Below are positions 2 through 41,092 of a stretch of DNA of 64,000 bases, in pieces. Source of the stretch: Mycolicibacterium goodii (GTDB lineage: Bacteria > Actinomycetota > Actinomycetes > Mycobacteriales > Mycobacteriaceae); NCBI RefSeq assembly GCF_001187505.1, contig NZ_CP012150.1, positions 6,792,048 through 6,856,047 on the forward strand. Direction: 5' to 3'. A model generated the notes under the pieces. It had not been told where the DNA came from. It did no database searches and saw nothing but the letters and a program-made list of their open reading frames with translations. How positions within the stretch are numbered: position 1 is the first letter of the stretch; every line of letters begins with the position of its first letter. The position numbers and the translations under genes are program-made.

Positions 2-601
2 ACCTACGACGCGGCCACCCGCCAGGTCACCAACACGCGTGAACACATCGGCATCTTCAGCGTCGCCGAGCCCCCCACGTTGTTCTGCTGCTACGCCGTC
101 GACGATCTCGATGCGGCCCGCGAGGCGATCGCCGCAGGCGGCGGAACGCCGGCAGACACGCGGGAATTCGACTTCGGCACGGTCCTCGATGCGACCGATC
201 CGGCGGGCGCGCCGTTCGCGGTGTTCGAGCCTGCCCCCGGCACACCGCGGCCCGCGCTCAACGGCACTGGGCCAGGGTCACTTTCGTACATCACGTACAA
301 CGTGCCCGACTCGGCCGCGTTCCGGGAGTTCTACGGCCGGGTGCTGGCGTGGACGTTCGAACCGGGCCGCGTCGCCGACGGCTGGGGTGTGCAGAACTGC
401 CGGCCGATGTCGGGCATGGCCGGTGGAAGTGACCGCGCCACAACGGTGCCCATGTGGACCGTCGACGACATCGACACCGCGGTCGCGCGGGTCCGCGAGG
501 CCGGCGGCACGGTGGTCAGTGCGCCCGCCCGGCAGCCCTACGGCGTGATGGCCGAGTGCACCGACGATCAGGGCACCCGCTTCTACCTCGGCCAGTTCTA
601 G
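2..601 (+). CDS. VOC (glyoxalase/bleomycin-resistance) family protein, 5' end outside the window
   Basis: The frame is open from the first bases of the window to TAG at 599-601, so the start lies upstream and only about 199 residues are visible. Two halves of similar design can be seen: an N-terminal part (FCCYAVDDLDAAREAI) and a C-terminal part starting near SYITYNVPDSAAFREFYGRVLAW, each with the beta-alpha-beta-beta-beta pattern of the vicinal oxygen chelate fold. The C-terminal half ends TRFYLGQF, typical of the family. Such two-module proteins are often metal-dependent lyases, dioxygenases or resistance-type binding proteins; no substrate can be assigned. It is convergent with the flavoprotein at 672-1859, with palindrome copy 1 directly after its stop. 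Confidence 0.8.
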   Translation, partial: TYDAATRQVTNTREHIGIFSVAEPPTLFCCYAVDDLDAAREAIAAGGGTPADTREFDFGTVLDATDPAGAPFAVFEPAPGTPRPALNGTGPGSLSYITYNVPDSAAFREFYGRVLAWTFEPGRVADGWGVQNCRPMSGMAGGSDRATTVPMWTVDDIDTAVARVREAGGTVVSAPARQPYGVMAECTDDQGTRFYLGQF

Positions 602-671: not shown

Positions 672-1859
672 TCAGCCGCCGAGGACCTCGGAGATGGGCG
701 CACCGGCGGCGATCTTGCCGCGGGTCTTCATGACCTTGCCGGGCATGCCGCCGCCGACCACGCCGACCAGCACACCGTCGCGTTCGTAGTAGGCCAGGAA
801 CTTGCGTCCGTCGTCCTCGACGATGTGCACGATGTCGTCGGACTCAGGTTCACCGAGGCACTGGATCTTGACGTCGTACTGGTCGCTCCAGAAGTACGGA
901 ACCGACACCACGGGTGAGGCCTCCTGGCCGAGCAGCGCGGGCACCATGGCCCGCGCCTGGTCGGCGACGTTGCTCCAATGCTCAACGCGCACTTGGCCAC
1001 CCACGTGGTCGCGCCACGACGCGACGTCGCCGATCGCCCACACGTGCGGGACACTCGCGCGGCCGACCTCGTCGCACACCACGCCGTTGTCGACCTTGAT
1101 GCCGCTGCCTTCGAGCCAGTCGACCGAGGGGCGGGAGCCGATCCCGACGATCACCAGATCCGCCTGCAGCTCGGTGCCGTCGGCGAGCACCACGGTCTCG
1201 ACGTTCTGGGTGCCACGCACCTCGGTGACGCCGACACCACAGCGGACGTCGACATCCTCGGCCTCATGCAGGCGGGTCACCAGCGCACCGATCTTCTCGC
1301 CCAGCACCGACGCCAGCGGGGTCGGCTGCGGCTCCACGAGCACCACCTCGACACCGAGCTTGCGCAGGCTCGCGGCGACCTCGCAGCCGATGAAGCCCGC
1401 ACCGATCACCACGGCGCGCGTCGCCTTCGCGGCATCCTCGCGCAGGGCCATGCTCTCGTCGTAGGTCCGCAGCACGCGGATGCCCTGCAGGTCCGGAAAC
1501 GAGCTGATCCGCTTGGGCACCAGCCCGGTGGCGATCACCAGTTCGTCGTAGGCCAGCTCGGTGCCGTCGGCGAGCTTGACGGTCTTGGCGGCCGTGTCCA
1601 CCGACTGCGCCCCGGACCCCAGCCGCAGGGTGATGTTGTTCTCCTCGTAGAACTCGGCCGGTTTGAGCGTGACGTCGTCGTTCTCCGCGCGCAGGACCTC
1701 CTTCGACAGCGGCGGACGGTCGTACGGCAGATGGTCCTCGTCACTGACGATGGTGATCGGCCCGGCGTACTCCGAACGGCGCAGCTGTTCGGCGGTCCGG
1801 GTGGCGGCCAGGCCACCACCGACGATCACGATGCCCGCAGAATGCGCTGATGTGGTCAC
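672..1859 (-). CDS. FAD-dependent NAD(P)H:ferredoxin reductase-type oxidoreductase
   Basis: The protein has 395 residues, the usual size for the reductases (rubredoxin, rhodocoxin or putidaredoxin reductase type) that pass electrons from NAD(P)H to a ferredoxin serving P450s or dioxygenases. An FAD dinucleotide-binding motif lies at residues 10-16 (IVIVGGGLAA). A second, NAD(P)-binding Rossmann motif lies near residue 148 (VVIGAGFIGCEVAASL). The FAD-contacting AIGDVASW is near residue 270. A C-terminal reductase domain follows (YFWSDQYDVKIQCLG). No ferredoxin or P450 gene is adjacent, so the partner is unknown. The start is an ATG; the upstream neighbour is the Lrp gene on the same strand, about 70 bp away. 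Confidence 0.88.
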   Translation of the reverse strand: MTTSAHSAGIVIVGGGLAATRTAEQLRRSEYAGPITIVSDEDHLPYDRPPLSKEVLRAENDDVTLKPAEFYEENNITLRLGSGAQSVDTAAKTVKLADGTELAYDELVIATGLVPKRISSFPDLQGIRVLRTYDESMALREDAAKATRAVVIGAGFIGCEVAASLRKLGVEVVLVEPQPTPLASVLGEKIGALVTRLHEAEDVDVRCGVGVTEVRGTQNVETVVLADGTELQADLVIVGIGSRPSVDWLEGSGIKVDNGVVCDEVGRASVPHVWAIGDVASWRDHVGGQVRVEHWSNVADQARAMVPALLGQEASPVVSVPYFWSDQYDVKIQCLGEPESDDIVHIVEDDGRKFLAYYERDGVLVGVVGGGMPGKVMKTRGKIAAGAPISEVLGG

Positions 1860-7134: not shown

Positions 7135-7187
7135 CGAGCAGACGCAAAACTGCACTTTTTCGCAGAGAAAAGGACAGTTTTGCGTCT
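7135..7187. repeat. Palindromic repeat family A, copy 2, left part (split by the IS element; rest at 8499-8503)
   Basis: The left arm starts CGAGCAGACGCAAAACTG at 7135-7152. The right arm begins CAGTTTTGCGTCT at 7175-7187 and then breaks off. The missing GCTCG is found at 8499-8503, directly after the IS element. Joined together the two pieces restore a perfect 18-bp inverted repeat like the other three copies. Confidence 0.85.
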
Positions 7188-7233
7188 CAGTGTCAGTCTG
7201 GATTTTGCCGCGTTGCGGTGGTTGGGTCTGGAT

Positions 7234-7373
7234 CATCTGGTGTCTGGCTCGTTTTGCGTCTGCCGCCCCGGGGGGGTTGGCGCTGAGCAGTAGTGCCGGC
7301 ACCAGGTGTGAAGGACCGACCGGCGTGACTTGATAGGAGCGTGGCATCGCCCCGACTGAGAAGTGTCCGCCGG
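7234..7373 (+). ncRNA. Candidate bridge RNA (target- and donor-binding loops) of the IS110-family element
   Basis: Folded by eye. Stem 7234-7242 (CATCTGGTG) pairs with 7300-7308 (CACCAGGTG; one G-U), then 7244-7248 with 7295-7299, with an apical stem 7264-7267/7279-7282. Its 5' internal loop holds GTTTTGCGTCT (7251-7261), identical to the target left of and including the CT core. Its 3' internal loop holds GAGCAG (7285-7290), the reverse complement of CTGCTC on the right of the target. A second domain is closed by CCGGCG 7320-7325 with CGCCGG 7368-7373. It contains ATAGGAGC (7333-7340), matching the element's right end near 8488, and ACTGAG (7355-7360), complementary to CTCAGT at its left end. 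Outer boundaries are not determined. Confidence 0.7.
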
Positions 7374-7423
7374 CCGGCCCGACCTCAACACACCTCTGTT
7401 CACTGGTGAAGGAGGCAACCACC

Positions 7424-8485
7424 ATGGTTGTTGTTGGAGCCGATGTGCACAAGTCCAGCCACACCTTTGTCGCTGTCGACGAGGTCGGACGCAAACTGGG
7501 CAGCAAGACCGTGCGGGCGACCACCGCCGGGCACCGCGCCGCGATTGCGTGGGCACGCGAGGAGTTCGGCGGCGAGCTGGTCTGGGGCATCGAGGACTGC
7601 CGCAACATGTCCGCCCGCCTGGAACGTGATCTGCTCAGCGCAGGCCAGCAGGTGGTGCGGGTACCCACCAAACTGATGGCCGCGGTGCGCAAGTCCGCAC
7701 GTAGCCGCGGCAAGTCCGATCCGATCGATGCGCTGGCGGTGGCCCGGGCGGTGCTGCGCGAACCGGACCTGCCCGTCGCCAGCCATGACCAGACCTCCCT
7801 GGAGCTCAAGCTGCTCACCGATCGCCGCGATGTGCTTGTCGCCCAACGCACCGCGGCGATCAACCGGCTGCGCTGGCATATCCACGACCTCGATCCCGAG
7901 CAGGCTGCCACGGTAGGTGCGCTTGACACCCTCAAGCATCAGCAGGCCCTGCAGGCCTGGCTGGCCGAGCCGACCGGGGTGCTCGCCGAAATCGCTCGAG
8001 CCGAGCTGGTCGACATCATCCGGCTAACCACCGAGATCAACGCCCTGGCCAAACGCCTGAGCGCCCGGGTCCAGCAGATCGCCCTGGCGCTGCTGGCGAT
8101 TGAAGGGTGCGCGGAGTTAACCGCGGCCAAGATCGTCGCCGAAGCCGCCGGGATCGACCGGTTTCGCAGCGAACCGGCGTTCGCCGCTCACTGCGGGGTG
8201 GCCCCGATCCCGGCATGGTCGGGAGCCAGCGCCGGACAAATGCGCCTCAGCCGGGCTGGTAACCGTCAACTCAACGCGGCTTTTCACCGCATCGCGTTGA
8301 CCCAGATCCGTATGCCCAACAGCCCCGGACACCAGTACTACCAACGCCTCCGAGAAGCCGGGAAAACCAAAGCCGCCGCCCTACGCTGCGTCAAACGCCG
8401 CATCGCCCGCCGCGTCTACCACGCCCTACGCCACGACACCGCACACCAAACCCCCAGTCAGCCGCCACAATCAGCAGCGGCTTGA
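7424..8485 (+). CDS. IS110-family transposase (DEDD recombinase)
   Basis: 353 residues from ATG 7424, chosen because GGAGG at 7411-7415 precedes it at normal spacing; an in-frame GTG at 7406 lacks this. The N-terminal RuvC-like DEDD domain shows the acidic residues in VVGADVHKSS, WGIEDCRN and KSDPIDALAVARAV. The C-terminal Tnp domain shows AAHCGVAPIPAWSGASAG with the serine proposed as nucleophile, then LSRAGNRQLNAAFHRIAL. The length is full for the family and no frameshift is seen, so the element looks active. These enzymes use the element's bridge RNA to choose target and donor DNA. Confidence 0.95.
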   Translation: MVVVGADVHKSSHTFVAVDEVGRKLGSKTVRATTAGHRAAIAWAREEFGGELVWGIEDCRNMSARLERDLLSAGQQVVRVPTKLMAAVRKSARSRGKSDPIDALAVARAVLREPDLPVASHDQTSLELKLLTDRRDVLVAQRTAAINRLRWHIHDLDPEQAATVGALDTLKHQQALQAWLAEPTGVLAEIARAELVDIIRLTTEINALAKRLSARVQQIALALLAIEGCAELTAAKIVAEAAGIDRFRSEPAFAAHCGVAPIPAWSGASAGQMRLSRAGNRQLNAAFHRIALTQIRMPNSPGHQYYQRLREAGKTKAAALRCVKRRIARRVYHALRHDTAHQTPSQPPQSAAA

Positions 8486-8510
8486 CATAGGAGCTACTGC
8501 TCGCGGAAAA

Positions 8511-27498: not shown

Positions 27499-27560
27499 CG
27501 CGAGCAGACACAAAACTGCACTTTTTGGCGCGGAAATAGGCAGTTTTGTGTCTGCTCGCG
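27499..27560. repeat. Palindromic repeat family A, copy 3
   Basis: Perfect 21-bp arms (27499-27519 with 27540-27560). Relative to copies 1, 2 and 4, both arms carry a matched change (GACGC to GACAC on the left, GCGTC to GTGTC on the right), so base pairing is kept. It lies 8 bp downstream of the fadE8 stop and 32 bp upstream of the echA4 start. Confidence 0.9.
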
Positions 27561-41032: not shown

Positions 41033-41092
41033 GCGAGCAGACGCAAAACTGCCTGTTTTCCAACGAAATTGGGCAGTTTTGCGTCTGCTCGC
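41033..41092. repeat. Palindromic repeat family A, copy 4
   Basis: Perfect 21-bp arms (41033-41053 with 41072-41092). It is placed between the aldolase stop and the convergent binding-protein stop, starting 2 bases after TAG, with the flank TAGCGCGAGCAG identical to that of copy 1. Confidence 0.9.

Follow-up and report, generated by a model that had tools for sequence, protein, structure and literature searches.

The closest described system is IS621, an element with a DEDD and serine recombinase that carries a bridge RNA in its left end, inserts into REP palindromes and forms a promoter at its circle junction (PMC11208160, Durrant et al. 2024); in the accessible part of the IS621 structure paper the second T of the core is described as almost invariant (PMC11208158). 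In the seekRNA work on IS1111 and IS110 elements the target is chosen by an RNA, and natural redirection by guide replacement is described, with the ISEc11/ISXne4 pair (PMC11187229, Nat Commun 2024). Among mycobacteria, IS900 of Mycobacterium avium subsp. paratuberculosis is an IS110-family element that inserts at gene starts with the motif CATGNNNNNNTCTCCTT, and the available text of that paper describes no guide RNA for it (PMC8141618). We read the IS900 motif as a ribosome-binding site and ATG on the other strand.

The window (the whole stretch of DNA that was analysed, 64,000 nucleotides) contains an element that belongs to the already known IS110-group bridge-RNA elements of the IS621 type. 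Its features and those of the interrupted target are listed below in window positions; the RNA features are predictions.

7136..7187, no strand: left part of the interrupted target palindrome, with arm GAGCAGACGCAAAAC at 7136-7150, a loop and an arm ending in GTTTTGCGTCT
7188..8496, plus strand: IS110-group element (CAGTGTC...ATAGGAGCTA), its ends set by four full copies and one truncated copy in the genome, both ends common to relatives
7207..7219, plus strand: 5' stem-loop GCCGC/GCGGT, with 97.6% of cells paired in 50 relatives and no double-change pair
7234..7308, plus strand: target-binding stem-loop with an internal loop, from the alignment of 50 relatives
7251..7261, plus strand: left target guide GTTTTGCGTCT, with the letters of the target top strand and its final T in the apical stem
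7285..7290, plus strand: right target guide GAGCAG, the reverse complement of CTGCTC
7313..7377, plus strand: donor-binding stem-loop, with 91.1% of cells paired in the outer helix
7333..7340, plus strand: left donor guide ATAGGAGC, identical to ATAGGAGC of the right end (8487-8494), the following bases and the core being unmatched
7355..7360, plus strand: right donor guide ACTGAG, the reverse complement of core plus left end, CTCAGT
7424..8485, plus strand: recombinase gene, 353 aa, PF01548 and PF02371, with the G--P----SG motif as GVAPIPAWSG
8482..8496, plus strand: short right end TTGACATAGGAGCTA, overlapping the stop codon
8497..8504, no strand: right remnant of the target palindrome arm (CTGCTCGC), from sequence and copies

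The element is 1.3 kb in size and has a single gene, a left end of 236 nt and a right end that reaches 11 nt past the stop codon. Its assignment to the IS110 group agrees with the organization of the ends: the non-coding left end is longer than the right end and holds the structured RNA, and the guides of the target loop are complementary to the insertion site, as judged from genomic copies and permutation tests. The long, RNA-bearing right end of the IS1111 group is absent, the RNA lying in the left end and the right end measuring 11 nt. The recombinase scores 205.5 bits against NF033542 ('IS110 family RNA-guided transposase', cut-off 140), and when it was searched against the PDB (E 0.001) only IS621 and ISCro4 matched, IS621 best; its G--P----SG motif is as described in PMC11187229. 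The interrupted palindrome lies between a universal stress protein gene (end 7115) and an oppositely oriented gene. We take this neighbour to be a short-chain dehydrogenase. Compared with the available description of IS621, the window element has the same 5' stem-loop, target loop and donor loop, the same guide order and strand sense and the same CT core, but its right end extends only 11 nt after the stop and its left donor guide falls short of the core.

A sequence-only reading of this locus had placed the target guides at 7251-7261 and, 34 bp further on, at 7285-7290, and had named donor guides in a second domain, which lie at 7333-7340 and 7355-7360. All of its coordinates are right, and on re-reading in the window the target guides match the actual insertion site, with GTTTTGCGTCT on the left (ending at 7187) and CTGCTC on the right (8497-8502). 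The same reading held that the core is CT and that the left donor-guide match is incomplete; CT indeed stands at both borders in the window (7186-7187 and 8497-8498) and in the copies of the element, and the donor match stops after ATAGGAGC. When the 237-nt left end was shuffled by mononucleotides, the 11-mer left guide was present in 15 of 200,000 shuffles, the right guide not being demanded.

The genome searched for copies was one contig of 7.1 Mb, which holds four full copies, one truncated copy and one 56-bp fragment at 83% identity; the fragment was left out of the test of copies. Insertions at sites unrelated to the guides were looked for and none was found: the site GTTTT(G/A)CGTCT / CTGCTC is present at four of the four full copies, and its left side also at the truncated copy. 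The sole deviation, an A for G in L003, could form a G.T wobble with the guide. With at most one mismatch the genome contains the 15-bp target 78 times (0 times for the reversed control). Because 66 of these 78 occurrences form 33 inverted pairs with arm starts 41 bp apart, the other 12 being unpaired, we describe the target as a REP-like palindrome; as a repeated genomic palindrome it offers many natural sites. Further copies with arms of at most one mismatch lie in the window at 605-660, 27502-27557 and 41035-41090. The copy at 605-660 stands between convergent reading frames (2-601, plus strand, and 672-1859, minus strand), and since these frames end toward each other the repeat may also act as a two-way terminator.

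The secondary structure was derived from an alignment of 50 of the 67 distinct left ends found, and pairs were counted on that same alignment. The outer stem of the target domain (about 7234-7249 with 7294-7308) has 99.6% of its cells paired and 3 double-change pairs, and the apical helix 98.3% and 2. Both target guides lie in the internal loop between these stems, and the alignment shows them on opposite sides of it, as the sequence-only reading had proposed. In the donor outer helix one of the 11 pairs is unpaired in 33 of the 50 rows. Over all five helices 96.8% of cells are paired against 96.1% in shuffles, a narrow difference because most columns hardly vary, and slid versions of the structure pair only 24-51%. 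Double-change pairs number 6 against 1.8 in shuffles, and none of 500 shuffles reaches 6. The covariation is real but modest, since most positions are highly conserved. Folding of the single sequence is weak relative to shuffles (z -0.91 for 237 nt, -1.78 for 171 nt), and its minimum-energy fold partly pairs the guides. No Rfam family matched the window at the gathering score, and the present alignment is therefore the basis of the structure. In the RNAalifold result the 5' stem was paired with the distal 3' end; the local 5' hairpin pairs equally well (97.6% of cells) and was preferred because IS621 has one. In five class A relatives (L037, L038, L052, L055, L057) the 5' stem-loop is separated from the left end by about 25-33 additional bases.

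The larger story lies outside the window, and here the sequence-only reading needs correction: there are sister clades with the same scaffold and with guides for other targets. Relatives were sampled by a first search of the genus that covered 396 genomes, scored two candidates in each and gave some match in at least 228, followed by searches of contigs of named species (15 loci) and then, more deeply, of 15 plus 15 chosen genomes. The named relatives suggest that the element is mycobacterial. Full-length and some partial matches were retrieved, and because the retrieved matches were chosen, the set of relatives is a selection and not a census. An anchored scan, requiring both ends and the donor loop, of 224 loci gave 119 elements, from which L067 and L137 were dropped before the first count, leaving 117 in which the guides could be read and both flanks were present. 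Relaxing the anchors raised the number to 133, of which 122 have a usable right end and 11 do not. The rows outside the first count that were added in the relaxed scan are L005, L012, L039, L044, L047, L051, L089, L102, L108, L117, L122, L132, L134, L138, L183, L220 and L221; rows were missed at first through anchor failure, a missing end or flanks shared with another row.

A conserved stem (GGTGTCTG-GCTC in most) precedes the left guide in these elements, and its second half comes after the right guide. Classes were assigned independently of the target, from the letters after AGGAG in the right end: CTA for class A, CAAT or AAAT for class B, and AAAC or TAAC for class C. Class A has 20 elements in the first count and 21 in the relaxed scan, includes the window element and has the window palindrome as its target. 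Class B (28 and 29) has, for example, AGACACGCACT as a left guide and CGAGCA as a right guide; by eye, its members lie mostly in another type of palindrome, which is not clearly seen at L042, L120, L121, L088 and L130. The first three of these form a subgroup with a CAAACCGACT flank and right flanks that then read GAGTAAAT. Class C is the largest (69 and 72), with right guides that are mostly CATG or CACG. In a tree of 64 distinct recombinases of at least 300 aa the three clades are the three classes, with two changes in all and clade support of 100/96 for A, 97/91 for B and 92/96 for C. One class C element, L152, has a left end that looks duplicated, with two left-end anchors and about 80 bases of extra length.

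Agreement between guide and site was scored as the number of nine left-guide positions that match the element's own flank, and guides were permuted within each class over 115 distinct rows (A 19, B 28, C 68), a procedure that treats elements as independent and ignores their relatedness. The left guide matched 7.63 of 9 positions in class A against 5.78 when permuted, 7.75 against 5.42 in class B, and 7.35 against 5.54 in class C, where an offset of 0 to 3 was allowed; none of 5000 permutations reached the observed value in any class. The best offsets among the 68 class C rows were +1 in 39, +2 in 24, +3 in 4 and 0 in 1, and a strictly in-register reading of the class C left guides gave no match (1.65 of 9, permuted 1.82). 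In this respect class C departs from IS621, its left guides being 1-3 nt out of register, unlike those of A and B. With relaxed anchors the means were 7.57 in A (n=21), 7.75 in B (n=28 of 29) and 7.31 in C (n=72), each greater than the maximum of 5000 permutations; without L152, class C gave 7.28 against a permuted maximum of 6.01 (n=71). When one site was drawn per distinct guide (1000 draws), the lowest observed mean exceeded the highest permuted mean in all three classes.

The right guide behaved similarly in class B (4.57 of 5, permuted 3.55) and class C (4.31, permuted 3.83), with none of 5000 permutations reaching either value. For class A, 272 of 5000 permutations reached the observed value, a weak test because that guide hardly varies. 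Two further observations count against the guides: wobble pairs are not the main kind of mismatch (10 of 28 in A, 5 of 35 in B, 16 of 49 in C), and 4 of the 72 class C rows match poorly, at 5 or fewer of 9 positions (L102, L117, L126, L172). L072 and L102 occupy an identical insertion site in two genomes and have different left guides; one of the guides was altered after insertion, perhaps through conversion from another copy. As judged by comparing the aligned elements, relatives keep the scaffold and change both guides, and their left guides track their flanks.

Taken as a whole, the 5' non-coding end from about 7205 to 7377 is very probably the bridge RNA of this IS110-group element, with guides readable from sequence as the sequence-only reading had proposed; the genomic copies, the guide-flank covariation, the conserved structure and the recombinase family all support it.

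The sites of class C differ in kind from the palindromes. In 69 of 69 elements of the first count and 72 of 72 of the relaxed scan the insertion adjoins an ATG or GTG whose position is constant, two bases beyond AAAC (TAAC in one case). At 64 of the 69 the frame that begins there has 82 codons or more, or meets no stop before the locus ends; it stops early at L101, L126, L173, L181 and L206. Upstream, TANNNT ends 6 (38 sites), 7 (24) or 8 (4) nt before the start codon in 66 of 69, missing only in L060, L100 and L126; in the same upstream window it occurs at 1 of 20 class A sites and at 0 of 28 class B sites. The guides carry the same pattern, as TANNNT is kept in 23 of the 24 distinct class C left guides and its inner bases vary. 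Over 65 class C rows, guide and site agree at the three inner bases of the -10 box with frequencies of 0.88, 0.98 and 0.94 (permuted 0.69, 0.45 and 0.40); the bases after the box match less well (0.85, 0.60 and 0.46, permuted 0.48, 0.42 and 0.29), and the base before it is at chance (0.23, permuted 0.21). On the right side, GTG-type guides stand at GTG in 8 of 9 cases and ATG-type guides at GTG in 16 of 60, where a U.G wobble is possible (Fisher p 0.0006).

Empty sites allowed the target to be read as it stands without the element. Three class C elements with three different left guides (L119, L146, L155) precede one gene in three genomes, a gene that is presumably dcd-like as read from VLLSDRD; L076 and L165 likewise share one gene (MCRLFG). 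The joined flanks of L155 were searched against 41 genomes, of which 35 matched, and the start was readable in 21 other genomes. In all 21, TANNNT ends 6 (19) or 7 (2) nt before GTG or ATG, without room for a ribosome-binding site between the two, and the closest empty relative (92% identical) equals left flank plus right flank exactly, without the bordering T and C. For the MCRLFG gene one empty relative (L256) reads straight across the join; among 10 other genomes, only 4 have TANNNT there. In M. tuberculosis 26% of the genes with a primary start site are leaderless and TANNNT stands at three quarters of start sites, according to the available text of PMC3898074. From these sites we infer that the targets of class C are apparent leaderless promoters.

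The exact pattern TAGCGTCG-N3-CATG is hardly enriched in nine genomes (13 matches, 10 for the control), so we make no claim on the number of free class C sites, and no match was found in phage records. Two plasmid copies from M. intracellulare were considered as an outside check and set aside: L285 has the flanks of L125 and is not independent, and L286 has a left guide that fits but fails the class C right-side rule because its right end is altered (AATCTCAATG, with no start codon in place); another IS110 gene follows it.

Other explanations were weighed against this evidence. The target-like stretch in the left end could be a relic of another palindrome copy, left by a nested or shifted insertion, and no guide at all; the identity does continue two letters past the core (GTTTTGCGTCTGC) and the palindrome is common in the genome. 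However, those letters belong to an apical stem that relatives keep, the right guide is a separate stretch across the loop, and relatives hold unrelated sequences at the guide position that match their own different sites. Guide-flank covariation was found in classes B and C, an outcome that contradicts a relic, and we regard this origin as extremely improbable. A recombinase that reads its target by protein-DNA contacts, with guide letters covarying through shared descent with the target, is another objection, given that target class follows the recombinase tree and that the permutation tests ignore relatedness. It is nevertheless very unlikely, as 24 distinct class C left guides follow the -10 box base for base at its inner positions, a protein code is not expected to give letter-by-letter identity at a fixed RNA position, and such RNAs are already documented for IS110 relatives (PMC11208160, PMC11187229, in the parts available).

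For class C in particular, TANNNT could be an internal promoter of the element, and the placement at gene starts could reflect the insertions that survived; TANNNT is, after all, the common -10 motif in M. tuberculosis (PMC3898074, available text). Survival would hardly give base-exact placement, yet 72 of 72 insertions lie at one phase to ATG or GTG; moreover, the left guide fits its own site better than permuted guides do, and the right guide reads the start codon including the choice between ATG and GTG. We consider this account highly improbable and retain the bridge RNA with guides to the -10 box and start codon as the reading of class C sites.

The borders of the relatives bear on the position of the exchange. 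All 117 elements have T immediately before the left end and C or T at the right border, and the bases that flank the break in class C targets are variable (G, C, T, A); the constant C after AAA in this class is part of its definition and not a result. That the class C target itself supplies a core T or C was rejected, neither base being present in the dcd-like or MCRLFG empty relatives, and the T and C therefore come from the donor. For class B we infer the same, judging by eye from the other arm of the palindrome. These borders and the empty relatives thus put the apparent exchange point of the relatives between the first and the second core base (donor Y|T), a point of difference from IS621; the CT/CT of the window element is uninformative on the exchange point. 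Class C targets also lack the near-invariant core T of IS621, and class B targets would lack it too, going by the palindrome. In the donor loop the left guide GATAGGAGCG is nearly constant, with exceptions in L039, L117, L122, L132 and L140, and the right ends differ after GGAG (GAGCTA, GAGCAA or GAGAAA), so that the part pairable in all is ATAGGAG. The right donor guide pairs with CTCAGT, and the left donor guide stops short of the core, leaving the core and the preceding bases unpaired.

By analogy with IS621 a mechanism can be outlined. With the ends joined in a circle, 17 bp would separate TTGACA from the downstream CAGTCT of the left end, and the two could serve as -35 and -10 boxes, which fits the promoter reported at the IS621 circle junction. 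TTGACA-N17-(C/G)ANNNT would form in 117 of 117 elements, although TTGACA and C/G were search anchors, so that only the A and T around three variable bases are observed. The RNA may be transcribed from this junction promoter (TTGACA-N17-CANNNT) and would bind the recombinase; its target loop would pair with both target strands and its donor loop with the joined ends of the excised circle, and the DEDD recombinase would exchange strands at the core; IS621 is the most likely model for these steps. Here too the RNA would presumably be made, be bound by the recombinase and guide recombination.

In class C the left guide would pair with the template strand and the right guide with the non-template strand, with a gap of 1-3 nt, over a span of about -12 to +3, the stretch opened by RNA polymerase. 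The element may thereby capture the transcription bubble of leaderless genes. Insertion falls between the -10 box and the start codon, so that transcription from the host promoter would begin at roughly the first bases of the element. Its right end places AGGAG before the displaced start codon (AGGAG-AAAC-N-N-(A/G)TG), with a spacing that looks normal for a ribosome-binding site, and would lend it to the displaced gene, such effects on expression being conjectural. A takeover of the promoter in which the gene is kept translatable may reasonably be read from this arrangement. The complete proposal, a natural programme for -10 box plus start codon that combines bubble capture, promoter takeover and a new ribosome-binding site, we offer tentatively, as possible rather than probable. 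The site of IS900, as described in the available part of PMC8141618, is a Shine-Dalgarno sequence plus start codon, whereas that of class C is a -10 box plus start codon and the element supplies the Shine-Dalgarno sequence.

Bridge RNAs, REP targeting and natural redirection (PMC11208160, PMC11187229) and the insertion of IS110-family elements at gene starts (PMC8141618) are already published. Relative to the seekRNA work, in the parts available, the present data show redirection in a single IS110-group family, among 117 parsed elements that fall into three target classes, one of them core promoters. A search of titles and abstract openings in the open-licence literature gave among the matches listed no paper in which bridge RNAs target -10 boxes or the starts of leaderless genes; within that literature class C is a previously unreported natural variant, and its sites may stand unremarked among the supplementary target motifs of PMC11208160.

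Within one small family, bridge-RNA guides have been rewritten in nature, and the insertion sites can be read as the outcomes. Class C suggests that a bridge RNA can address a functional site, a promoter with its start codon, instead of a repeat; it also suggests that the register between the left and right guides can vary and that the target's core dinucleotide can be unconstrained. Each of these suggestions, on addressing, register and core, departs from the published IS621 work as far as its available text goes.
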